From the NCBI RefSeq assembly GCF_010731855.1, contig NZ_AP022620.1:3596001-3660000 (forward strand): 64,000 bases of DNA. The letters are read 5' to 3'. The position numbers and the translations under genes were made by a program. The DNA is from Mycolicibacterium anyangense (GTDB taxonomy: Bacteria > Actinomycetota > Actinomycetes > Mycobacteriales > Mycobacteriaceae). Positions 3,531 through 45,075 of this stretch are shown piece after piece; position 1 is the stretch's first letter, and every line of letters starts with the position of its first letter. The notes beneath the pieces are model-generated. The model ran no database searches. It saw only the letters and a program-made list of their open reading frames with translations, and was not told the DNA's origin.

Positions 3531-4205
3531 GTGGACGAGATCCTGGCGAGGGCCGGAATCTTCCAGGGGGTTGAACCCAGCGCAGTTTCCGCGCTGACCA
3601 AGCAACTGCAGCCGGTGGACTTCCCGCGGGGGCATACCGTGTTCGCCGAAGGCGAGCCCGGCGACCGGCTGTACATCATCATCTCCGGCAAGGTGAAGAT
3701 CGGCCGGCGTTCCCCGGACGGTCGGGAGAACCTGCTGACGATCATGGGCCCGTCGGACATGTTCGGCGAGTTGTCGATCTTCGACCCGGGTCCCCGCACG
3801 TCGAGCGCCACCACGATCACCGAGGTGCGCGCCGTGTCGATGGACCGCGACGCGCTGCGCGCGTGGATCGCCGATCGGCCCGAGATCGCTGAGCAGCTAC
3901 TTCGCGTTTTGGCCCGCCGCCTGCGGCGCACCAACAACAACCTGGCCGACCTGATCTTCACCGACGTGCCGGGCCGGGTGGCCAAGCAGCTGCTTCAGCT
4001 CGCTCAGCGCTTCGGCACCCAGGAGGGCGGCGCGCTGCGTGTCACCCATGACCTGACTCAGGAAGAGATCGCCCAGCTTGTCGGCGCCTCGCGCGAGACG
4101 GTGAACAAGGCCCTGGCCGACTTCGCCCACCGCGGGTGGATCCGCCTCGAAGGCAAGAGCGTGCTGATCAGCGACAGCGAGCGCCTCGCGAGGCGCGCCC
4201 GCTAA
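3531..4205 (+). CDS. crp: Crp, cAMP-responsive transcription regulator
   Basis: The 224-residue CRP/FNR regulator has an N-terminal cyclic-nucleotide-binding beta-roll (about residues 10-125). The phosphate-binding cassette is [18 protein letters not shown], with the Glu and Arg that contact cAMP. The C-terminal winged helix reads [21 protein letters not shown] (about 170-190, quoted in part). The start is a GTG preceded by the strong ribosome-binding site AAGAGGGG, and a TAGACT -10-like element lies at 3466-3471. Orthologue of Rv3676, a global regulator of starvation and persistence genes including whiB1 and rpfA in M. tuberculosis. It is convergent with the metallo-beta-lactamase gene. Confidence 0.95.
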
Positions 4206-4206
4206 C

Positions 4207-4255
4207 GATTTCGGCGCGGTTCTCGTCCCTACTCGACGGCAACCGCGCCGAAATC
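4207..4255. terminator. Bidirectional hairpin between crp and the MBL gene
   Basis: Perfect 15-bp arms, GATTTCGGCGCGGTT and its complement, enclose a 19-nt loop two bases after the crp stop. The right arm overlaps the last codons of the convergent gene. There is no U-tract, as is usual for mycobacterial hairpin terminators. The same 15-mer arm recurs at 45005-45053. Confidence 0.6.
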
Positions 4256-5054
4256 ACGTCCTGAGGTAGTCCAGCTGGGCCCGCACGGATTTCTCCGCGG
4301 CGTCCCACAGCTTCTCGTCGACATCGGTATAGACGTGTTCGACGACTTCACGTGCCGTCGCGTCCGCACCGAGGGTGCGTAACGCCGCCCGGACCTGGTC
4401 CAGGCGCTCCTCGCGGTGAGCCAGGTACATGGTGGTGACGGCGGCGATGTCATCGAGTTCGGGGCCGTGCCCCGGTAGCACCCGCAGCCTGCCCAGCGCC
4501 TGAAGCCGGCGCAAGGACTCCAGATAGTCGGCGAGGCTGCCGTCCTCGTCGTCGATGACCGTGGTGCCGCGGCCCAGCACCGTGTCGCCGGTCAGCACCG
4601 CCCTTCTCCCGTCGCTGCGCTCGCCCCGGCCGTCCTCGAGGATGAAGGACAGCGAGTCGGCGGTATGCCCGGGAGTGGCCATCACGGTGATCCGCACCCC
4701 GGCGGCGTCAATCACCTCACCGTCGGTCAGCGGTCCGCCCAACCCACGCAGGAAGCCGCTGCCGACGGACCGCACGGTGGCCCCGGTGGCGTCGCGGATC
4801 TTGTCGATCCCGCCAGTATGGTCGTCGTGCTTGTGGCTGATGAGGACCAGCGAAATGGTGCCGAGGCCGGCGAGCCGGGCGATGTGCTCGTCATCGTCGG
4901 GCCCGGGATCGACGACGACCATCTCGTCGCTACCCGGACCGCGCACCACCCAGGTGTTGGTGCCGTCGAGCGTCATGATGCCCGGGTTGTTGCACAGCAG
5001 CACCGAGGCGACGTCGGTGACGGGCCTCAGCACCCCGTACGCCGGATGGGTCAT
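4254..5054 (-). CDS. Metallo-beta-lactamase-fold hydrolase (LACTB2-like)
   Basis: The 266-residue protein starts at MTHPAYG. It carries the metal site SHKHDDHTGG (HxHxDH), a second His in TPGHTADS, the Asp in LTGDTVLGRG and a C-terminal His in LPGHGPEL. The short C-terminal winged-helix-like domain is typical of LACTB2-type enzymes, some of which are RNA nucleases. The specific substrate cannot be read from the sequence. Its ATG overlaps the RidA stop (ATGA). Orthologue of Rv3677c. Confidence 0.88.
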   Translation of the reverse strand: MTHPAYGVLRPVTDVASVLLCNNPGIMTLDGTNTWVVRGPGSDEMVVVDPGPDDDEHIARLAGLGTISLVLISHKHDDHTGGIDKIRDATGATVRSVGSGFLRGLGGPLTDGEVIDAAGVRITVMATPGHTADSLSFILEDGRGERSDGRRAVLTGDTVLGRGTTVIDDEDGSLADYLESLRRLQALGRLRVLPGHGPELDDIAAVTTMYLAHREERLDQVRAALRTLGADATAREVVEHVYTDVDEKLWDAAEKSVRAQLDYLRT

Positions 5055-12068: not shown

Positions 12069-13166
12069 ATGAGCAAGGTCGCCGTCCACAGCCAGCCGCG
12101 AGGCTGGGTGAACGACGCCATCCGGTTGATCGAGGCTGACGCGCGCCGCAGCGCCGACACCCATCTGCTGCGCTATCCGCTGCCGTCGTCGTGGAGCGAC
12201 CGGGTGGACGTGCAGCTGTACCTCAAGGACGAATCGACCCACATCACCGGCAGCCTCAAGCACCGGCTGGCCCGTTCGCTGTTCCTCTACGGCCTGTGCA
12301 ACGGATGGATCGGTGAAGGCACCACCGTCGTCGAGGCGTCATCGGGTTCCACCGCGGTGTCGGAGGCCTACTTCGCTGCCCTCCTCGGCCTACCGTTCGT
12401 TGCGGTGATGCCGGCCTCGACCAGCCCGGCCAAGACCGCGCTCATCGAATCCCAGGGCGGGCGTTGCCATTTCGTCGATCATCCGGGCGAGGTGTACACC
12501 GAGGCGCAGCGCATCGCCGAGGAGACCGGCGGGCACTATCTGGACCAGTTCACCAACGCCGAGCGAGCCACCGACTGGCGGGGCAACAACAACATCGCCG
12601 AGTCGATCTACGACCAGATGCGCGAGGAGTCCCACCCGATCCCGTCGTGGATCGTGGTGGGCGCCGGCACGGGTGGCACCAGCGCAACGATCGGGCGCTA
12701 CATCCGCTACCGGCGGCACGCCACCAAACTCTGCGTGGTGGATCCGGAGAATTCGGCGTTCTTCCCGTCGTATACCGAGGGCCGCCGCGACATCGTCATG
12801 GCGGGGTCCTCCCGAATCGAGGGAATCGGGCGGCCGCGGGTGGAACCGTCGTTCCTGCCGGAGGTGGTCGACCGGATGGAACTCGTGCCCGACGCCGCCT
12901 CGGTGGCCGCTGCGCACCACGTCTCGCGGGTGCTGGGCCGCCGTGTTGGGCCGTCGACGGGAACCAACGTCTGGGGGGCGTTCAGCCTGCTGTCCGAGAT
13001 GGTGGCCAGGGGCGCGAGCGGGTCGGTGGTCACCCTGATCGCCGACAGCGGCGACCGCTACGCCGACACCTACTTCGACCCGGTGTGGCTAGCGGGTCAC
13101 AACCTCGAGCCGAGCCAGCACGCGGGCGTGCTGGCCGAGTTCGAACGCTCCAGCGGCTGGTCCTGA
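12069..13166 (+). CDS. cds1: PLP-dependent cysteine desulfhydrase (cysteine synthase family)
   Basis: The 365-residue fold-type II PLP enzyme has the Schiff-base Lys64 in GSLKHRLA, the substrate loop SSGSTAVSE and the phosphate-binding [14 protein letters not shown]. The orthologue Rv3684 has been reported to be Cds1, which breaks down L-cysteine to pyruvate, ammonia and H2S. The start is ATG 13 nt after the metallophosphoesterase stop; the frame is open further upstream but overlaps that gene. The 3' end overlaps a possible small ORF on the other strand. Confidence 0.85.
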
Positions 13167-13267
13167 CCGGTGTCGTCGACGGCGTCGTAGTCGCCGGTCA
13201 CCACCAGCCACAGCGCGGCAAGTAGGAAGAATCCCCCGTACACCACGGCTCCCAAAGCGGTCATCAT
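13097..13267 (-). CDS. Possible small membrane protein, antisense to the cds1 3' end
   Basis: A 56-codon ORF starting [14 protein letters not shown] has one clear transmembrane segment (about residues 4-25), an acidic stretch (DYDAVDD) and a short tail. A very good ribosome-binding site, AGGTGGAG, precedes its ATG. Its last 70 bases are antisense to the end of cds1. I recognise no family. The ribosome-binding site and membrane segment make it credible but not certain. Confidence 0.45.
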
Positions 13268-13386
13268 CCGCTCCACCTTTCGCCTGCCGGCGTTGTCGTC
13301 GCGCCGTTAGTGTGCACAACGCCACCGACAAGTCAGATGCTTCCCGCCGCAGGTGATCAACCTGCGCACCCGCCGTGACCGGCCGT

Positions 13387-13417
13387 TTGGCTTCCCGAGG
13401 TGCCAGTGCGATACGCT
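13387..13417 (+). promoter_or_regulatory. Probable promoter of tRNA-Pro
   Basis: TTGGCT at 13387-13392 and TACGCT at 13412-13417 are separated by 19 nt. The -10 ends 14 nt before the mature tRNA 5' end. Confidence 0.4.
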
Positions 13418-13431
13418 GTCGTGGCTTCACG

Positions 13432-13505
<74 letters not shown>

Positions 13506-13518
13506 CTCGTGTGAAAGC

Positions 13519-30710: not shown

Positions 30711-31865
30711 CTACGGGGTCAGCGGCTGGGCGCTGTTGCGGCGGGCCGCCACCACACCGGCGACGGAGGTCACGGCGATGGTCAACAGCGCGCCCAGGAT
30801 CAATGCGGAGGGTTCGCCGGCGGACAGCAGATGCTGTTGAGTACCGAGCGTCGCGGCGGCGACCGGGACGCCCAGCTGGGCAGCGGCCAGTGCGCCGAGT
30901 GCCAGCGGCTGACTGACCAGACGCGACACGCAATGCGCCACTACCGCGCCCACCCCGAGGCTGACACCCAACAGGATGTAGGCCGGGTGATCGCCGAGAT
31001 CGCGGACCTGCAGCGAGGCACCCAGCCACACGAAGAACAGGGGGCCGAAAAAGCCTTCGGTGATCCCGAACAGCTGGCGCGCCAGCCGGCGCGGTTCCCC
31101 CACCGCATTGACCACCAAACCGATCGCGAACCCCGCCAACATGATTGACACGTGGGTGGTGATGGCGAGCGCGCCCAGACTGAACAGCACGATGAGGCTG
31201 ATCCGCAGTTCGAGGGCGAAGCGGTTGCGCTCGGAGTACCGGTGCAGTCGTTGACGTAGTCCGCGCCGATCGACAAAACGCAGCGCGACGAACAGGATCA
31301 CGGCGCAGCCGGCGATGATGGCCGCCCCGATCGCCGCAGTGACCGCGCGGCTGGGGTCGATCACCAAGGGCAGCAGCACAATGCAGGTGGCGTCGGCAAT
31401 GGCGATCTGGGCCGTCACGCTCTTGACCGCGGGGCCATCGAGCCGAAGGGACTGGATCACGGGCAACGCCAGCGCCGCCGAGGACGACGCCATGAGCACC
31501 GCGTAGACCGCGGCGTGCCCGGTCTGGAAGACCGCGGCCAGCGCCGCCCCCAGGATGGCGGCCGCCACTCCGACGAGGACGGCCCGGCCGGCAGCACCCG
31601 GAATCGATGACCGCAGGGTGGTGTCGCGGATCGGGACGTGGGTGCCGACCACGAACATCACCAGCGCGAAACCGATGTTGGCCAGCAATTCGAAGGTGCG
31701 ATCGCCCGAGTCGACCACGCCGAAGCCGGTTCTGCCGATCACCAGACCGATCGCGAGTTCCCCGATGACAACCGGGATCCGCAGTCCGGGCACCGACGCC
31801 AACAGCGGGCCGGCCAGGCCGGCCACCGTGACGATCGCCAGCGCGCCGAACCCGAAACCGCTCAC
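30711..31865 (-). CDS. Kef-type monovalent cation/proton antiporter (CPA2)
   Basis: The 384-residue protein has about 12 membrane segments. Features include GELAIGLVIGRTGFG, the intramembrane segment TAQIAIADATCIVLLP with the ion-binding Asp, and GPLFFVWLGASLQV, which is typical of KefB/NapA-like antiporters. There is no TrkA-N regulatory domain. Its start overlaps the stop of the upstream hypothetical gene (ATGA), so the two are linked. Confidence 0.85.
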   Translation of the reverse strand: MSGFGFGALAIVTVAGLAGPLLASVPGLRIPVVIGELAIGLVIGRTGFGVVDSGDRTFELLANIGFALVMFVVGTHVPIRDTTLRSSIPGAAGRAVLVGVAAAILGAALAAVFQTGHAAVYAVLMASSSAALALPVIQSLRLDGPAVKSVTAQIAIADATCIVLLPLVIDPSRAVTAAIGAAIIAGCAVILFVALRFVDRRGLRQRLHRYSERNRFALELRISLIVLFSLGALAITTHVSIMLAGFAIGLVVNAVGEPRRLARQLFGITEGFFGPLFFVWLGASLQVRDLGDHPAYILLGVSLGVGAVVAHCVSRLVSQPLALGALAAAQLGVPVAAATLGTQQHLLSAGEPSALILGALLTIAVTSVAGVVAARRNSAQPLTP

Positions 31866-32239
31866 GAACCGTCAGCCCACGACACCAGGCGGCAGGGAAT
31901 AGGGGTGTTCTCGTCGGTCAGGTAGCTGGCACACACGCGGTGATAACCGTCGGCCACCTGGAGCGCGTCAGCCGCGCTGCCGCGGACCAGCAGGATCGGT
32001 GAGAGCTTCTTGCCGTTGCTGATCTTGTCCAGATCCGAACGGACATGCGGGTTGTCGGCCGGCAGCAGGCTGAGTCTGGCCGCCCGTAAGATGTCCTTGG
32101 CCTTGCGGTACTCGGTACCCGTCGACCCGAGTGCGGCGACCGTCGCGGTGACCGCCGACGACTCGGCGAGCAGACTCAGGTAGTCCGCCGCCGCGTCGTA
32201 GTCATGATCTTCGGGATCGTCCAGCCATTTCACCGCCAT
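31862..32239 (-). CDS. Hypothetical protein with ParB/sulfiredoxin-like motif
   Basis: The 125-residue protein ends with a segment ILLVRG followed by LQVADGYHRVCASY. The DGYHR core resembles the phosphate-binding motif of the ParB/sulfiredoxin fold. The N-terminal half is acidic and helical. It is coupled to the antiporter gene downstream. The function is unknown, and the fold assignment rests on this one motif. Confidence 0.6.
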   Translation of the reverse strand: MAVKWLDDPEDHDYDAAADYLSLLAESSAVTATVAALGSTGTEYRKAKDILRAARLSLLPADNPHVRSDLDKISNGKKLSPILLVRGSAADALQVADGYHRVCASYLTDENTPIPCRLVSWADGS

Positions 32240-32275: not shown

Positions 32276-32304
32276 CTCAGCTCAGACCGTAATGTCGCCT
32301 GAGA
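32276..32304. repeat. Left copy of 29-bp direct repeat flanking the island (attachment-like)
   Basis: 29 bases identical to 37871-37899, with no similarity beyond either end. This copy is intergenic. It contains CTCAG-N13-CTGAG, a short dyad like the core of a recombinase crossover site. Confidence 0.75.
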
Positions 32305-32331
32305 GTGTTGGCGCCGGCATCCCCGTCGTGA

Positions 32332-33009
32332 CTAGCAGGTCAGCGTGCCGTAAATCGCCCGTGCCCAAATCGATGTCAAAGCGTCCAGTTCGGATTCGGC
32401 TTCCGCGCGCGTGAGGTCGGCGCGCAACATTCGCTCCAGAGTGCGCTCGTTCATCGATACCAACAGTCGCAGCAATGTGGCCGGCTCAGGGCCTTCAGGC
32501 GCGAGTCCTGCTGCGCGATCAGCGGCGACGACACCCGCGACCGGCGCGACGTGGCGTTCCAGCCAGCGCTCCCAGATCGTGGCCGCTTCCCGGTCGGTAG
32601 ATCGTGCGTCGAGGACGGCCAGCATCAACGGTCTGTGCTGCTGCCACAGTGCCCACAGATGCCCGATCGCCACCCGTAGGGCAGTGGGACGATCCATGCT
32701 GCGAGCCATGAATTGCGATGCGCCCTCGAAGGTCTCGTCGAACACTTCATCGAGCAACGTCGCGACAGCGACCGCCTTGCTGGGGAAGTAGAAGTAGAAG
32801 CCGGTCCGGCGCACGCCTGCGGCTGCGGCGACCTCGTTGACGCTGAGCTCATCGAGACTGCGGGTGGCCAGCAGCCCCTCGAGAGCCTCGAGGATTCGCT
32901 GGCGGGTCAGGTCGCTCTTACGAATCCTGCCCGACGACCACCGGGGCGCAGAGACGGGAGGCTGCACATCCACCGGACTTTTTCGACGGTCGTCGATTTT
33001 TTTGGACAT
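32332..33009 (-). CDS. EthR-like TetR-family repressor
   Basis: The 225-residue regulator has an N-terminal helix-turn-helix (about 36-85) with LSVNEVAAAAGVRRTGFYFYFPSK (quoted in part). The C-terminal domain resembles EthR of M. tuberculosis, including VSMNERTLERML and IWARAIYG. EthR binds hydrophobic ligands and represses the monooxygenase gene ethA; here too the regulator is divergent from a flavin monooxygenase. A TAGAAT -10 lies 6 nt before the ATG, suggesting a leaderless message. Confidence 0.85.
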   Translation of the reverse strand: MSKKIDDRRKSPVDVQPPVSAPRWSSGRIRKSDLTRQRILEALEGLLATRSLDELSVNEVAAAAGVRRTGFYFYFPSKAVAVATLLDEVFDETFEGASQFMARSMDRPTALRVAIGHLWALWQQHRPLMLAVLDARSTDREAATIWERWLERHVAPVAGVVAADRAAGLAPEGPEPATLLRLLVSMNERTLERMLRADLTRAEAESELDALTSIWARAIYGTLTC

Positions 33010-33015
33010 GCGTCG

Positions 33016-33042
33016 ATTCTAGTCCTACTATGACTCCAGTCA
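33016..33042. promoter_or_regulatory. Divergent promoter and operator of tetR and monooxygenase
   Basis: TAGAAT on the minus strand (33016-33021) serves tetR, and TACTAT on the plus strand (33026-33031) serves the monooxygenase. The palindrome TGACT-CC-AGTCA (33031-33042) overlaps the plus-strand start region. It is a natural candidate operator for the EthR-like protein. Confidence 0.5.
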
Positions 33043-33083
33043 CAACAACCTCACGCTGTGACACCCGACGCAGGGAGTGAACC

Positions 33084-34469
33084 TTGGCATCGCAGAACCC
33101 GAGGACCGCCATCATCGGTGCAGGTATCAGCGGCCTGACTACGGCAAAGAGCCTTAGCGACTACGGAATCGACCATGTGATCTTCGAGTCCGGGAACCGG
33201 GTTGGTGGCAACTGGGCCTTCAAGAACTCCAATGGGCATTCGAGCGCCTACCGCTCACTGCACATCGACACCTCCAAGGAAGGCTTGCGGTTTCGCGATT
33301 TTGCAATCTCGACGGCATATCCCGACTTCCCGCATCACAGCCAGGTTCAGCAGTATCTCGAGGACTACTGCCGGGCCTTCGACCTCAAGCGCAACATCCG
33401 GTTCGAGACGCCGGTCCGACATGCCCGGCGACTCACCCACGGTGGCTGGGAGATCGAGCTGCACTCTGGCGACGTCGAGTATTTCGATGCGCTGGTGGTG
33501 GCCAACGGCCACCATTGGGATCCGCGATACGCCGAGTTCCCGGGCACGTTCACCGGCGAGCAGATGCACTCCCACTACTACATCGATCCCAGCGAGCCCA
33601 TGGATCTGCGGGGCAAGCGGATTCTGGTGGTGGGCATCGGTAACAGCGCCTCCGACATCACCTCGGAGCTGTCGCAGAAGAGCAATCGCAACCGGGTCTT
33701 CCTCTCGACCCGCTCGGGAGCCTGGGTGGTACCCAAATACATCATGGGTGTTCCGGTCGATCAGATGCTATCCCTGAAGCCCCGGCTACCGTTGCGCCCC
33801 CAGAAGATCGCAGCCCGGATTCTGCCGAAACTTCTCTCGGGCGACATGCAGCGCTACGGTTTACCGAAGCCAGACCACCACTTCATGGACGCACACCCGA
33901 CGCAGTCCGCGGAGTTGCTCGTCCGGCTGGGATCCGGCGATGCGATCGCCAAGCCCAATGTGAAAGCACTGGAGGGCAACCGCGTTCGCTTCGTCGACGA
34001 CTCCGTCGAGGAGATCGACGTCATCATCTGGGCCACCGGCTACAACATCTCGTTCCCGTTCTTCGATCCCGAGTTCCTCAGCGCTCCCGGCAATAAGATC
34101 GATCTCTTCAAGCGAATGTTCAAACCCGGCATCGACGATCTGATCCTCGTCGGATTCGGCCAGGCGATTCCCACGCTGTTTCCCTTCGTCGAATGCCAGG
34201 CGCACCTGGCAGCGCGGTATCTCGCCGGCACCTATCGGACGCCAACCATCGACGAGATGCACTCAGCGATCGCCGCCGACGACAAACGCGACCGCGCGCA
34301 CGTCAGCGATCGCCCACGCCATACCCAGCAGATGGACACCCCCATCTACAACGACGACATCAACCGCCGCGAGATCCCTGCCGGCGCTCAACGTGCCCGG
34401 CAATTGGGCCCCGTGACGCTGGCGGGTCGCGCAACCAACCGCAACCAGGAGTCCGCCAATGCCCACTGA
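33084..34469 (+). CDS. Flavin-containing/Baeyer-Villiger-type monooxygenase
   Basis: The 461-residue FMO-like enzyme has an FAD-binding GAGISGL (about 12-18), the FMO fingerprint FTGEQMHSHYY (FxGxxxHxxxY, about 155-165), and an NADPH-binding GIGNSASD (about 186-193). It uses O2 and NADPH to oxygenate soft heteroatoms or ketones. The divergent EthR-like regulator mirrors ethA-ethR. The start is a TTG six bases after GGGAG. The next gene, a hydrolase, overlaps by 11 bases. The tail after about residue 400 is Arg- and Asn-rich and poorly conserved in the family. Confidence 0.87.
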   Translation: MASQNPRTAIIGAGISGLTTAKSLSDYGIDHVIFESGNRVGGNWAFKNSNGHSSAYRSLHIDTSKEGLRFRDFAISTAYPDFPHHSQVQQYLEDYCRAFDLKRNIRFETPVRHARRLTHGGWEIELHSGDVEYFDALVVANGHHWDPRYAEFPGTFTGEQMHSHYYIDPSEPMDLRGKRILVVGIGNSASDITSELSQKSNRNRVFLSTRSGAWVVPKYIMGVPVDQMLSLKPRLPLRPQKIAARILPKLLSGDMQRYGLPKPDHHFMDAHPTQSAELLVRLGSGDAIAKPNVKALEGNRVRFVDDSVEEIDVIIWATGYNISFPFFDPEFLSAPGNKIDLFKRMFKPGIDDLILVGFGQAIPTLFPFVECQAHLAARYLAGTYRTPTIDEMHSAIAADDKRDRAHVSDRPRHTQQMDTPIYNDDINRREIPAGAQRARQLGPVTLAGRATNRNQESANAH

Positions 34470-35403
34470 TGTCACCTTCCAGTCCGCCAATCACCGCTGC
34501 CACGCTTGGCATTTCACGGGCACAGGCGATGAATTCCTGGTCGACGACCGCCGCCCCTGTGTCGTCATGGGTCACGGGTTCAGCGCGACGAAGGACAGTG
34601 GGCTGGCCGAGTATGCAGAGCGTCTTGCCGCTGCCGGTCTCGACGTACTGGCCTTCGACTACCGCCACTTCGGTGCCAATTCCGTCGACGGTGTCCCGGC
34701 AGAGGTCAACCCGCGCTCACACGAAGCCGACTTCCGCGCCGCGGTACATCATGCTCGGTCATTGCCCGGAGTTGATCCCGAAAGGATCGTCATCTGGGGT
34801 GTTTCACTGTCCTCCGGACACGTGATGAATGTGGCAGCCCAAGACTCGTCCGTCGCAGCAGTCATCGCCATGACCCCCGCGGTCGACGGCGTCGCCGCCA
34901 TCCGCGTGGCCATTCGACGATCACCGATCGCAGCCGCCCGGATGGCGTGGGCTGCGCTCCGCGACACGGCCGCAGCACTGTCGGGCCGTCCCCGCGTGAC
35001 AGTAGCGGTGGTAGGCGAGCCCGGCGCGACGGCCGTCATGTCAGCCCCCGGTGCCGCAACGGGTTACACGCAGATGGCGGGCCCATCTGCGGTCAACGGG
35101 GTGCCCGCGCGCTCGGTCCTGCGGGCCGCGCTGTACCGGCCATTGCGGCGCGCCCACAAGATCTCGTGTCCGGTCCTCGTACAGATCGCCGACAACGACA
35201 TGTCCGCTCCCCCGCAATCGGCGCGTACCGCCGCGTTCCGGTGCCGCGCCGACGTACGCCACTATCCCTGTGATCACTTCGACGTCTACCCGGGCAGCGA
35301 CTGGTTTGAACCCGCGGTAGCTCATCAATTGCACTTCCTGCGCCGGCATTTCGCGCCCGCCAGTAAATTTGCGCCGGTCGATCCCCTGGTGCTGACGTCA
35401 TGA
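34459..35403 (+). CDS. Alpha/beta hydrolase
   Basis: The 314-residue hydrolase has an oxyanion-loop GHGFSATKD, FDYRHFGAN, the nucleophile elbow GVSLSS with the catalytic Ser, an acidic residue in IADNDMSAP and His in YPCDHFDVYPG. The type is related to dienelactone- and acyl-hydrolase-like enzymes. It overlaps the monooxygenase, which suggests that it hydrolyses the ester or lactone product of a Baeyer-Villiger step. That pathway is inferred. Confidence 0.85.
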   Translation: MPTDVTFQSANHRCHAWHFTGTGDEFLVDDRRPCVVMGHGFSATKDSGLAEYAERLAAAGLDVLAFDYRHFGANSVDGVPAEVNPRSHEADFRAAVHHARSLPGVDPERIVIWGVSLSSGHVMNVAAQDSSVAAVIAMTPAVDGVAAIRVAIRRSPIAAARMAWAALRDTAAALSGRPRVTVAVVGEPGATAVMSAPGAATGYTQMAGPSAVNGVPARSVLRAALYRPLRRAHKISCPVLVQIADNDMSAPPQSARTAAFRCRADVRHYPCDHFDVYPGSDWFEPAVAHQLHFLRRHFAPASKFAPVDPLVLTS

Positions 35404-35561
35404 CACGGGGACCCCACACGCTGCACCGCGGGTCATCCAGCACCGCCTAAAGCCGCACGCAGTTGAGCTCAGGATAGACCGCCAGACATTCGAGGCCGTC
35501 CATGAAACCCCGACCGCCACAAAATAATACTGCCCTTGCCGTGAACAGTTTGGGGCAATCC

Positions 35562-35577
35562 GTCAAATTTATTTGAC
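35562..35577. promoter_or_regulatory. Inverted repeat, possible operator
   Basis: GTCAAAT-TT-ATTTGAC has perfect 7-bp arms. TAGAAT, a -10-like hexamer, follows at 35580-35585, so a bound protein would block a promoter there. The regulator may be the island's TetR protein or another. Confidence 0.45.
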
Positions 35578-35624
35578 ATTAGAATATGTCGAGTCCGACT
35601 TCCGGTCGAAATATGCCGAAAGCC

Positions 35625-35653
35625 TTGACTACCAACGCTTGACAACCTAGCGT
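35625..35653 (+). promoter_or_regulatory. Sigma-A-type promoter of the LLM-kinase operon
   Basis: TTGACT (35625-35630) and TAGCGT (35648-35653) have an ideal 17-nt spacer. Transcription would begin near 35660, about 40 nt before the ATG. Confidence 0.55.
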
Positions 35654-35699
35654 CGCCCCCCGTGTGCACCGCCGCGACGCCCGAGACTGGGAGACATTG

Positions 35700-36770
35700 A
35701 TGACGGCCCCGATGCCAGAGATTGGCTTCTACACGTTGGCAGGTCAGGCCGAAGACCCCCGCCAGTTGGTCGACGAAGTGCACGACGCGGAAGCGATGGG
35801 GATTGGGGAGTGCTTCATCTCCGAACGGTTCTCCACCAAGGAAGCGGCCACGATCTCAGGCGCCGTCGGCGCCGCGACGACGACCATCGAAATCACCACC
35901 GCCGCAACGAACCACAACACTCGACACCCGATCGTGACAGCGGCATTCGCAACAACGATGCACAGACTCACCCGCGGCAGATTCACGCTCGGCATCGGAC
36001 GGGGTATCGCAGGGGTACAGAAGGCGTTCGGCATGCCGACAATCACCACGGCGCAGATGGAGGATTTCGCCGGGGTGATGCGTCGCCTGTTTCACGGCCA
36101 GACCGTAGTAGGGCACGATGGTCCGATGGGGCGCTATCCCGCCCTTCGATTGGATCCGAACTTCGACGAAGACGTTCAGCTGGGCATTGTGGCATTCGGC
36201 CCCGGTTCCCTTGAACTCGCCGGACGTGCTTTCGACAAGGTCGTCTTGCACACCTACTTCACCGACGAGACTCTCCAACGATGCGTCCGGACCGTGAAGT
36301 CGGCCGCCCAACGAGCTGGCCGGGATCCCGATGCGGTCAAGGTGTGGTCCTGTCTGGCCACGATCGGTGACCATCTGTCAGAAGAGCAGCGTCTGCGGAA
36401 GACGGTCGGTCGGTTGGCGACATATCTCCAAGCCTATGGTGACCTGCTCGTCACTACGAACAACTGGGATCCTCTGGTGCTCAGGCGGTTCCGCGAAGAC
36501 GCGGTGGTTCAGACCTTCATGCCGCCCAGCGGTGCGATAAAGGTCATCGACTCCCCGTCGACTACGGTTGAACAACTCGAACACATCGGCACTCTGCTGC
36601 CCGCGGAATGGCTGGCCCACGCGGCGACCGGAAGCCCGCAGCAGTGTGCTGCCACGATCCAGTCACAACTCGACCACGGCGCCGACGGAGTCATTCTGCA
36701 CGGAGCGTCTCCGGCTGAATTGAGCCCCATCTTGCCCGCCTACCGAGCAATACGCCACCAGAAGGGTTGA
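35700..36770 (+). CDS. LLM-class F420/flavin-dependent oxidoreductase
   Basis: The 356-residue luciferase-like protein starts MTAPMPEIGFYTLAG after the ribosome-binding site GGGAG; an ATG-free GTG start at 35664 is possible. The blocks ISERFSTKEAA, TAATNHNTRHP and TLGIGRGIAG fit a mycobacterial family annotated as probable F420-dependent oxidoreductases. Its substrate is unknown. Only four bases separate it from the kinase gene, so they form an operon inside the island. Confidence 0.83.
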   Translation: MTAPMPEIGFYTLAGQAEDPRQLVDEVHDAEAMGIGECFISERFSTKEAATISGAVGAATTTIEITTAATNHNTRHPIVTAAFATTMHRLTRGRFTLGIGRGIAGVQKAFGMPTITTAQMEDFAGVMRRLFHGQTVVGHDGPMGRYPALRLDPNFDEDVQLGIVAFGPGSLELAGRAFDKVVLHTYFTDETLQRCVRTVKSAAQRAGRDPDAVKVWSCLATIGDHLSEEQRLRKTVGRLATYLQAYGDLLVTTNNWDPLVLRRFREDAVVQTFMPPSGAIKVIDSPSTTVEQLEHIGTLLPAEWLAHAATGSPQQCAATIQSQLDHGADGVILHGASPAELSPILPAYRAIRHQKG

Positions 36771-36774
36771 GGAC

Positions 36775-37854
36775 ATGACAATCCACGACTACACCGTTGC
36801 CGAACTGACCCCTGGGGTTGTCACTTCGATGTTGCGTACCACGCCAGAGTGGGCCGATGCCGCTGTCGCCCAGGTGAAATCGACCGCGGTCGGTACGGGA
36901 CAGATGGCGAGCAGCTACCGCCTCGACCTCGACTACGAACGTCAACCGACTGGTGCGCCCGACACGCTCATCGCCAAGATGCCGAGCACCGATCCAACCA
37001 GCCGGCAGATGGCACTCGCGACAGGCGCTTATCTGCGAGAGATCTGCTTTTATCGAAGCCTTGCCGCCCTCACGACAGCCCGCACACCGGCCTGCCATTT
37101 CGCTGATATCACCAGTGACAGCCTGGGTTTTGTGTTACTACTCGAGGATATGGGTCCGGCCCGCACCATCGATCAGCTCGCTGGATGCACACCGGACCAG
37201 GCGGAGCTGGCCCTCGCGCAAGCGGCGGACTTGCACGGCCCCACATGGGGCCATCCTGCGCTGAAAGCGGAGTCCTGGCTGTCGATCGCCGATCTGTGGT
37301 CGGCGCTCGCCGGATCGATCCCGCAAGTCACGGGGATGTGGCTCGAGCGATTCGGCAAGTACCTACGCCCAGAGCATCTTCCAGTGATCGAGGAGTGCGG
37401 CTCACACGTGTCCTCGTGGCTGGCCACACTCCGTGATTCTCGTTGCCTTTGGCATGGCGATTTCCGGCTGGATAACCTGCTCTTCGACGCGCAGGACGGC
37501 AGGACACCGGTCGTGGTTGTCGACTGGCAAAGCGTTTCCTCCGGCCCGGGTATCGCCGACGTCTCCTATTTCCTTGGCAATTCTCTGTCGGAAGCCGATC
37601 GAATGGCCACCGAGCGGGCGCTCGTCACGTCCTACCATCGACGGCTGCTCGCCCACGGCGTACAGGGGTACTCCCTGGACCAGTGTTGGCATGAATACCG
37701 GGCTCACTCGATCTACGGCCTGATGTTGTCGATTCCGATATCGCTGGGCGTGCAGTCTACCGAGCGTGGCGACCGCATGTTCGCGGCAATGGCAGACCGC
37801 GCTGCCAATCAGATGTTGGTCAACGACACCTTCGCAGCTCTCAAGGAGCTCTAG
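36775..37854 (+). CDS. CHK/ecdysteroid-kinase-like phosphotransferase (APH fold)
   Basis: The 359-residue kinase has the catalytic LWHGDFRLDNLLF (HGDxxxxN, about 221-233) and the metal-binding VVVDWQSVSSGPGIAD (about 243-258) of APH-like small-molecule kinases. The sequence resembles the CHK/EcKL group, which phosphorylates steroids or other hydroxylated small molecules in animals and occurs often in actinobacterial catabolic clusters. It is the last gene of the island; only 16 bases separate its stop from the right repeat. Confidence 0.8.
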   Translation: MTIHDYTVAELTPGVVTSMLRTTPEWADAAVAQVKSTAVGTGQMASSYRLDLDYERQPTGAPDTLIAKMPSTDPTSRQMALATGAYLREICFYRSLAALTTARTPACHFADITSDSLGFVLLLEDMGPARTIDQLAGCTPDQAELALAQAADLHGPTWGHPALKAESWLSIADLWSALAGSIPQVTGMWLERFGKYLRPEHLPVIEECGSHVSSWLATLRDSRCLWHGDFRLDNLLFDAQDGRTPVVVVDWQSVSSGPGIADVSYFLGNSLSEADRMATERALVTSYHRRLLAHGVQGYSLDQCWHEYRAHSIYGLMLSIPISLGVQSTERGDRMFAAMADRAANQMLVNDTFAALKEL

Positions 37855-37870
37855 TCGCATCGACTGCGCC

Positions 37871-37899
37871 CTCAGCTCAGACCGTAATGTCGCCTGAGA
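37871..37899. repeat. Right copy of 29-bp direct repeat, within the SnoaL-like gene 3' end
   Basis: Identical to 32276-32304. This copy encodes the last nine residues and stop of the SnoaL-like protein on the minus strand, so the gene remains intact. The dyad CTCAG-N13-CTGAG is at 37876-37898. Confidence 0.75.
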
Positions 37900-38375
37900 A
37901 CAGCGAGCGGGTCGGTACTGTCGCGGCTTCCCCGCGGCCCCGGGCGGTCCGGGCCGACGAACTCATCCGGGCGGGTCCATTCCCGCACCGCCCACCGCTC
38001 GGCGATGGCCCACCGGCCGTCGCGGCGTTCCATCAGATCGATGTAGCGCACCCCGGTGGTGAAGTTCAAGCGCTCGCCCGATCCCCAATGCGTTGCCGTG
38101 CAATATGTTTCGCTGACCGCTCGGTCCGCACCAACGAACTCGACGTGATGGTTTCCGATGAAGTGCATTGTCCCGGACAGGTATTCGAGATTGCGGCCAA
38201 GCCAGACGACGTACTCCTCGACAGTGCCGTCAAAGCCGGTGTGGTGATCGACAGCGCCGGGATGGTAAGCCTCTCGCACCAGCTTCAGGTCGAGGCGATC
38301 CACCCCGCGGCAGTACAGCGTCACCACCTCACGAATCGCGGCGACATCAGCCAGCCGACCTACGTCCTCAGGCAC
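37872..38375 (-). CDS. SnoaL-like/nuclear transport factor 2-fold protein
   Basis: The 167-residue protein starts at the GTG of VPEDVGRLADVAAIREVV, eight bases inside the end of the SDR gene. The pattern IREVVTLYCRGVDRLDLKLV followed by HHTGFDGTVEEYV is typical of SnoaL_4-type proteins, which include cyclases, dehydratases and ketosteroid-isomerase-like enzymes. It is the last gene of the carotenoid oxygenase operon, and its 3' end is the site of the island repeat. Confidence 0.82.
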   Translation of the reverse strand: MPEDVGRLADVAAIREVVTLYCRGVDRLDLKLVREAYHPGAVDHHTGFDGTVEEYVVWLGRNLEYLSGTMHFIGNHHVEFVGADRAVSETYCTATHWGSGERLNFTTGVRYIDLMERRDGRWAIAERWAVREWTRPDEFVGPDRPGPRGSRDSTDPLAVLRRHYGLS

Positions 38376-39123
38376 CGTAGCCGCCGTCCACGTCGAGCTT
38401 CTGACCGGTGATGAAACCGGCCCGCGGCGAGGCGAGGAAGCACACCGCCTCGGCCACGTCGGCGGCACAGCCGAAGCGGCGCAGCGGGGTGTTGCGTCGC
38501 GCGGCCTCCAGCGCGGCATCATCGAGATCACCATCGGCCCTGAGCCGTTCGGCGTTGCCGTCCACGAGCATCCCCGGACCCACACAGTTGGCCCGGACGC
38601 CGAACCGTCCCTCTTCGGCCGCCACACCCCGGATCAACGCCTCGATGGCAGCTTTGGGAGCCACCGAGAGGCCGTCGCGCACCGCGAATCGCCGGGTCGC
38701 CGCAGTGGTCACCGCCACCAGGTTGCCCCGGGAGGCGCGCAGATACGGTAGTGCCGCGGTGATCAGGGCGAAGAAACCACCAGCGTCCGTGCCGATCTGG
38801 CGATCGAACTGCTCCGGTTCGATCGTGCTCAGGTGGCGCATCGGCACATGCGGCCCGGCGGCGTAGACCACGGTGTGCAAGCCAGCTGCTGGCTGTGCGA
38901 CCGATTCCACGACCCGCTGGACATCCGCGGCATCGCCCAACTCCAACCGGTGTCCACGGGCGCCGGTCTCCGCGGCGAGCGCGGCCGCCGTGGCCTCGTT
39001 GCCGTGAAAGGTAAACCCCACCCGGGAACCGCGAGCGATCAGGGTCCGCACGATCTGCGAGCCGATCCCGCCGGTGCCGCCCACGACCAGCGCCATCCCG
39101 GGCTGTGCCCCGAAGTCATCCAT
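38368..39123 (-). CDS. Short-chain dehydrogenase/reductase-like protein lacking the catalytic Tyr
   Basis: The 251-residue SDR fold has the nucleotide-binding GGTGGIG (about 15-21), an AAG motif (YAAGPH) and the C-terminal GQKLDVDGGYG. At the YxxxK position it reads LSVAPK, so Ser replaces the catalytic Tyr while Lys is kept. It may therefore be a non-canonical oxidoreductase or a binding protein. It lies nine bases after the carotenoid oxygenase gene and overlaps the SnoaL-like gene. Confidence 0.82.
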   Translation of the reverse strand: MDDFGAQPGMALVVGGTGGIGSQIVRTLIARGSRVGFTFHGNEATAAALAAETGARGHRLELGDAADVQRVVESVAQPAAGLHTVVYAAGPHVPMRHLSTIEPEQFDRQIGTDAGGFFALITAALPYLRASRGNLVAVTTAATRRFAVRDGLSVAPKAAIEALIRGVAAEEGRFGVRANCVGPGMLVDGNAERLRADGDLDDAALEAARRNTPLRRFGCAADVAEAVCFLASPRAGFITGQKLDVDGGYGA

Positions 39124-44265: not shown

Positions 44266-45003
44266 ATGAGCACCCCATTTCCCCAGTTCAACGGCCCGCA
44301 CCCGGGTCGTCCCAGTTTCGGTCCCGGGTTCGGTCCTGGCTTCGGCCCCGGATTCGGTTTCGCCCCGCCCGGACCCGGCCGCCGGCACGCTCGCCGGCAC
44401 TTCCGTGAGCACGTCCGCGAACAGATGGCCGCCGGTGACGGTCCGGCCGGGTTCGGCCCGCGCGGTGGCTTCGGCCCCGGATTCGGGTTCGGCCCGGGCT
44501 TCGGCTTCGGGCCTGGTTTCGGGCCCGGCGGCCGCGGTGGCCGCCGCGGGCATGGCCGTGGCCGCGGCAGGCGCGGTGATGTCCGTGCCGCGATCCTGGC
44601 CCTGCTGGCCGAACGGCCGATGCACGGCTACGAGATGATCCAGGAGATCGCCGAACGCACCGACGGTGTGTGGAAGCCCAGCCCCGGCTCGGTCTACCCC
44701 ACCCTGCAATTGCTCGTCGACGAAGGCGTCATCGTCGGCACCGAAACCGACGGCAGCAAGAAGCTTTTCGAGCTGACCGAGGACGGTCGCGCCGCCGCCG
44801 AGAAGATCACCGCCCCGCCGTGGCAGGAGATCGCCGAAGACGTCGACCCGGGCCAGCTCAACCTGCGTGCCGCCATCGGCCAGTTGTTCGGAGCGGTTGC
44901 GCAGTCCGCGCACACCGCCAGCCCGGAGCAACAGCAGCGCATCGTCGACATCGTCAACGCTGCGCGCCGTGAGGTCTACCAGATCCTCGGCGAATCGGAG
45001 TAG
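44266..45003 (+). CDS. PadR-family regulator with Phe-Gly-Pro-rich N-terminus
   Basis: The 245-residue protein has about 100 residues of FGPG/FGFGPG repeats and Arg-rich segments before the PadR winged helix (about 105-180), recognisable by AAILALLAERPMHGYEMIQEI (quoted in part) and SPGSVYPTLQLL. A helical dimerisation tail follows. The ribosome-binding site is AAAGAGAGAG. The low-complexity region could bind metal or nucleic acid or be a flexible tether. Confidence 0.85.
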   Translation: MSTPFPQFNGPHPGRPSFGPGFGPGFGPGFGFAPPGPGRRHARRHFREHVREQMAAGDGPAGFGPRGGFGPGFGFGPGFGFGPGFGPGGRGGRRGHGRGRGRRGDVRAAILALLAERPMHGYEMIQEIAERTDGVWKPSPGSVYPTLQLLVDEGVIVGTETDGSKKLFELTEDGRAAAEKITAPPWQEIAEDVDPGQLNLRAAIGQLFGAVAQSAHTASPEQQQRIVDIVNAARREVYQILGESE

Positions 45004-45004
45004 C

Positions 45005-45053
45005 GATTTCGGCGCGGTTGCCGTCGCTGAGCGGCGGCAACCGCGCCGAAATC
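45005..45053 (+). terminator. Hairpin terminator after the PadR gene
   Basis: Perfect 19-bp arms (45005-45023 and 45035-45053) enclose an 11-nt loop immediately after the PadR stop. The outer 15 bases of the arm, GATTTCGGCGCGGTT, are identical to those at 4207-4221. Confidence 0.65.
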
Positions 45054-45075
45054 ATGGGCATGCTTCGATGGTCCC

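Follow-up and report, generated by a model that had tools for sequence, protein, structure and literature searches.

A five-gene cassette between 29-bp direct repeats at the 3' end of a SnoaL-like gene in Mycolicibacterium anyangense

A complete and horizontally acquired cassette of five genes lies directly behind a SnoaL-like gene in M. anyangense, and comparison with related genomes indicates that it was inserted there once, recently on the host lineage, between the stop codon of the SnoaL-like gene and the start region of a gene for a 125-aa protein. The event is of an ordinary kind but unusually clean: a young island, a 29-bp duplication at the 3' end of a gene, and no resident recombinase. 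A whole metabolic gene set has recently been captured here and can be followed to the base pair, with empty sites for comparison. Islands without an integrase are usually classed as decayed integrase elements. Here, we found neither decay nor a cognate integrase, which makes the island a good test case for the entry of compact gene sets into chromosomes by trans-acting recombinases versus repair. All positions below refer to the window, the whole stretch of 64,000 nucleotides that was analysed.

The insertion site and its empty counterparts

The features of the locus, listed from left to right, are:

31862..32239, minus strand: gene for a 125-aa protein, which stands beside the SnoaL-like gene in empty-site genomes and is now parted from it
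32276..32304, plus strand: left copy of the 29-bp direct repeat; the flank to its left is colinear with the intergenic region of empty-site relatives
32305..37870, no strand: inserted DNA, 5,566 bp, 62.6% GC
32332..33009, minus strand: TetR-family regulator with an EthR_C domain (Pfam EthR_C, 6.1e-22; closest solved structure EthR, 1.1e-24)
33010..33083, no strand: divergent promoter gap between the regulator and monooxygenase genes, with promoter-like sites on both strands and an inverted repeat, GTCACA/TGTGAC (consensus matches only)
33084..34469, plus strand: flavin-dependent monooxygenase, FMO-like (Pfam FMO-like, 9.1e-74; best solved relative ancestral FMO5, 5.3e-66)
34459..35403, plus strand: alpha/beta hydrolase; the gene overlaps the monooxygenase gene
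35404..35699, no strand: intergenic stretch of 296 bp, AT-richer (57% GC), with a perfect inverted repeat, GTCAAAT-2-ATTTGAC, at 35562-35577
35700..36770, plus strand: F420-dependent luciferase-like oxidoreductase (LLM) of the TIGR03857 family (NCBIfam, 381 bits; cut-off 218.4)
36775..37854, plus strand: APH/EcKL-type small-molecule kinase (Pfam EcKL 61.2 bits, APH 44.8 bits; HGDxxxxN motif)
37871..37899, plus strand: right copy of the 29-bp direct repeat, which is the 3' end of the SnoaL-like gene
37872..38375, minus strand: SnoaL-like gene, intact, start codon uncertain (Pfam SnoaL_4, 5.3e-21 on 37872-38390; orthologues in 26 other genomes)

As described in the initial annotation, the repeat copies at 32276-32304 and 37871-37899 are 100% identical over 29 bp and the similarity stops immediately outside, and the right copy indeed consists of the last 8 codons and the stop codon of the intact SnoaL-like gene, plus one base on each side. 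The repeat begins within this gene and stops one base past its stop codon, with the island lying downstream, and the insertion damaged neither neighbouring gene. The island is a unit with defined ends, since the outermost stop codons of its genes lie only 27 bp and 16 bp inside them. Allowing up to 3 mismatches, the 29-bp sequence occurs at these two sites only in the own genome, a single contig of 5,696,751 bp, and nowhere in 60 other genomes searched, which removes the possibility, raised with the initial annotation, that it is a dispersed genomic repeat. The pair is also the sole exact direct repeat of at least 20 bp at a spacing of 1-20 kb in the window, and none of the 20 evenly spaced 20-kb stretches of the own genome (400 kb) contained such a repeat. 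An RNA gene at the site was rejected as well, there being no Rfam match and the only tRNA of the window lying at 13432-13506. Elsewhere in the window, two 54-nt copies that are 85% identical and 40.8 kb apart (4203-4256 and 45001-45054) each form a long stem-loop (GATTTCGGCGCGGTT...AACCGCGCCGAAATC), and are possibly a dispersed terminator-like or intergenic repeat.

Orthologues of the SnoaL-like gene were searched in 396 genomes of the genus (E up to 1e-40), and a close orthologue was present in 27 of them, the own genome included. In 17 of the 26 other genomes, the 125-aa gene is present almost at full length, beginning 25-38 bp past the SnoaL stop codon. Four more (G024, G009, G018, and G199) have kept the junction and the start region with a degenerate 125-aa gene, and in five (G307, G190, G291, G067, and G312) the DNA after the SnoaL gene is different or deleted. 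The compact junction is common to 21 of the 26 relatives. None of the five cargo proteins had a match at these 26 loci, each taken with ~1.5 kb of flank, and the junctions showed no other element. The empty site that the initial annotation had suggested looking for thus exists, and the idea that all relatives might carry the same five genes in this place can be discarded, whereas the other cargo that was envisaged at the same site did not turn up.

Removal of the island together with one repeat copy leaves a gap of 37 bp from stop to start, compared with 37, 38, and 38 bp in G318, G264, and G179, and the left flank is colinear with these three genomes up to and through the repeat. The insertion is therefore precise to the base, the duplication excepted. 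The four relatives that were compared differ from the 29-mer at 4, 5, 4, and 9 of its 29 positions; positions 12, 21, and 25 differ from all four and have the same bases in both copies. Fourfold-type sites of the two flanking genes are 40-52% different from those of the nearest sampled relatives. Because the copies are identical while the relatives differ to this extent, the insertion is young relative to the splits from these relatives.

No Pfam or NCBIfam model matches the 125-aa protein. A conserved stretch directly before its start has been kept in the flank and reads GAGTACCCTCTGCACACC-ATG in the own genome; it looks like the mycobacterial -10 element of a leaderless transcript and is a candidate for one. 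With the island in place, the TetR regulator gene lies upstream of the 125-aa gene and on the same strand, so that read-through into the latter is possible. In several relatives (loci L038, L040, L041, L042, L045, and L121), little or only a degenerate form of the 125-aa gene is left, and in four of these the short stretch preceding its start is still conserved.

The A/T-rich interior pointed out in the initial annotation holds locally, as the GC content of the island (62.6%) is below that of the rest of the window (67.9%) and below that of all 474 same-size sliding windows outside the island. It does not hold genome-wide, where 62 of 620 same-size windows, taken from 20 stretches, have a GC content as low or lower. 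Low GC was for this reason dropped as proof of foreign origin, and it is a weak argument for an integrated element.

The five genes and their source

The five genes that were first annotated between the repeats were all found, in two rightward-operon groups with a leftward regulator: the leftward TetR gene is followed by the rightward monooxygenase and hydrolase genes, the 296-bp stretch, and the rightward F420-LLM and kinase genes. None of the five matches a recombinase, transposase, or relaxase family in Pfam or NCBIfam, in agreement with the initial annotation. Judging from the protein families, the monooxygenase would probably oxidise a ketone-, aldehyde-, or sulfur-containing compound and the hydrolase would then probably cleave the product by hydrolysis, after which the F420 enzyme probably reduces or oxidises the compound and the kinase probably phosphorylates it. 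The EthR-like repressor would probably control the cargo genes, and the inverted repeat at 35562-35577 may be the operator of the second operon. This combination of monooxygenase, EthR-type regulator, hydrolase, F420-LLM, and kinase looks like a so far undescribed module for catabolism or detoxification; a narrow literature search found no description of the five-gene set. In the ethA-ethR locus of mycobacteria, the gene for the TetR-type regulator EthR is likewise divergent from a flavin monooxygenase gene. However, the monooxygenase of the island is closest to FMO-type structures, and the island set adds a hydrolase, an F420-dependent LLM oxidoreductase, and a kinase. The own genome has no close paralogue of the monooxygenase, the next best match being 27-31% over half the length. 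It does contain, in the region G000:C1:514250-523249, a second TIGR03857-type LLM gene with 70% identity to that of the island, located ~7.5 kb from a PF00589 gene that is probably a Xer gene.

Fourteen loci of the genus, from 13 genomes, were picked as the best DNA matches to the cargo. All five families occur together within 19 kb at five of these loci (G132, G303, G268, G210, and G177); among the other nine, G206 is without a TetR match, G404 is without an LLM match, and seven hold two or three of the families. The five families also stand side by side on the Pseudonocardia plasmid pBCI1-2 (NZ_CP012185.1), where genes for an FMO, a TetR regulator, a hydrolase, a phosphotransferase, and a TIGR03857 LLM adjoin. 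There, however, the genes are all on one strand and in another order, the proteins are 40-61% identical to those of the island, and the set is part of a larger AMP-binding/catabolic-type region on a plasmid of 850 kb. The first half of the island is closest to G404, with the same divergent layout and 70-83% protein identity, whereas for the second half the nearest matches are in G303, G206, and others (LLM 79-81%, kinase 62-63% protein identity). In the G404 locus (L097), the kinase match at 12282-13507 covers residues 123-359 only, and overlapping frames at this place suggest that the kinase gene is truncated or broken.

The whole arrangement of the island occurs in no sampled genome, and its donor is therefore unsampled. 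At the DNA level, the best cargo match in the 396 genus genomes was 73% over the first half (G404), and the second half reached 69-71% in four of them. Among 348 genomes of the order, 8 including the own passed 1e-120, the best other being 66-70% over parts. A close cargo donor was rejected on these figures, which come from searches that scored one or two first-look candidates per genome and can miss weaker or second copies. A scan of genome contigs with the kinase gave a single match, in Sphingopyxis (38%). Phage origin was rejected, with no match in the phage collection and no exact match of the 24-bp repeat core in viral contigs, and so was a plasmid copy of the whole island, since all five records with partial matches covered less than 80% of the query. 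A search of plasmids with 51 nt around the repeat gave weak partial matches only, in 8 records. At the 14 other full or partial loci, the longest direct repeats bracketing the gene set were 11-14 bp, with as one exception a 20-bp repeat situated 1-2 kb away from the genes, and a stricter scan of five such loci yielded no bracketing direct repeats.

Possible routes of insertion

We give roughly even chances to site-specific integration at the 3' end of the SnoaL-like gene by an element that, like a cis-mobilizable element (CIME), is without its own recombinase. In this scenario, the 29-bp gene end would also have been present on a small circle, and recombination between this copy and the chromosomal one would have left the SnoaL-like gene intact and brought the displaced gene end to the far side of the island. 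As the recombinase is not in the island, it would have acted from elsewhere or have been lost, as in a CIME. The layout of repeat and gene end is the usual one for integration at a gene 3' end. Tyrosine recombinases, according to a review, are associated with direct repeats of 8-60 bp, a range that includes the 29 bp found here, and have 3' ends of protein genes among their targets (PMC5704250).

Of the integration footprint proposed in the initial annotation, the insertion itself is real, given the empty sites and the lack of cargo at all 26 loci, but the attachment-site pair did not find the same support. There is no recombinase inside the island, no cognate integrase was found, no second occupant with other cargo turned up at the 26 orthologous loci, and no long repeats edge the other copies of the gene set. 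The inverted symmetry of the repeat does not exceed chance, as its best centre gives 7 of 12 pairs and 399 of 2000 shuffles are equal or better. Moreover, the site is poorly conserved, yet both copies carry host-lineage bases, so that a perfect match to an element from another species would be unexpected. The shared bases are equally well accounted for by a duplication of the host site.

The own genome contains four PF00589 genes and no PF00239 serine recombinase gene. Two tyrosine integrase genes are located inside elements at a tRNA-Leu gene (G000:C1:2971096-2981218, a 35-bp repeat spanning 10.1 kb) and a tRNA-Met gene (G000:C1:5624934-5643575, a 46-bp repeat spanning 18.6 kb). Both elements were recovered by the same repeat analysis and served as a positive control. 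The remaining two PF00589 genes are taken to be XerC and XerD. In the 20-40 kb around each of the four genes, the best exact match to the 29-mer was 8-10 nt, a length that shuffles reach as well. The two resident non-Xer integrases were rejected as trans-acting helpers, their tRNA cores being unrelated and without similarity to the 29-mer. The repeat is presumably also unlike dif, the site of an IMEX (an XerCD/dif-integrated element). Target duplications of insertion sequences are usually 2-14 bp. A transposon was rejected, as the 29-bp duplication is longer than this and terminal inverted repeats are missing, no inverted word above 6 nt being shared by the first and last 100 bp of the island.

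A repair-type insertion is a possible explanation to which we give a smaller, though substantial, share of the probability. Here, a foreign five-gene fragment would have been joined in while the host's own 29 bp was duplicated, either at a staggered break or by a polymerase template switch that returned 29 bp further back, and neither a recombinase nor an attachment site would have been involved. The lineage-specific bases at positions 12, 21, and 25 of both copies fit this well, as do the chance-level symmetry, the failure to find a cognate recombinase in the own genome, the lack of another occupant among the 26 loci, and the occurrence of the same gene set elsewhere without repeats at its edges. 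However, a fragment with random ends would seldom carry a complete functional set and stop just 27 and 16 bp past its outer stop codons, and the end of the repeat one base past the stop codon would be a coincidence. In addition, a stagger of 29 bp is long, and the literature search found no precedent.

It is quite improbable that the occupied locus was imported whole by homologous recombination from a close relative, after insertion elsewhere by either mechanism. As even the nearest relatives in the sample differ at 40-52% of fourfold-type sites, many closer lineages lie outside it, which leaves room for such a source, but no occupied relative is among the 26 orthologous loci, and import shifts the event while the duplication still has to be explained. 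An ancestral island that the relatives have since lost by deletion is scarcely credible: direct repeats can mediate precise deletion, but 21 of the 26 relatives share the compact junction, none of the 26 carries the cargo, and divergence of this size would have eroded a perfect repeat of 29 bp.

Comparison with integrase-less islands

Site-specific integration without a resident recombinase is the reading that we compare here with described systems. We consider it unlikely that the island represents a mobile operon cassette with defined ends that enters an unconserved gene end, by a recombinase in trans or a long-duplication insertion, and can dispense with both a conserved attachment gene and an integrase of its own. 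By analogy, it is plausible that the island works like a CIME. As reviewed (PMC5704250), CIMEs share with the island the direct repeats at a gene 3' end, the accessory genes, and the lack of integration and transfer genes. The island differs in that no related ICE or IME sharing the attachment site is found among the 26 loci, and in that it has no decayed module and is unusually compact. In Dehalococcoides, 15 ssrA islands without an integration module have been reported (PMC3146451). These are likewise catabolic and bounded by a direct repeat of the target gene end, in their case of 20 bp. Their target is the conserved ssrA gene, and sister islands carry recombinases, whereas the present island, the single occupant of its site, sits at a protein gene that is poorly conserved.
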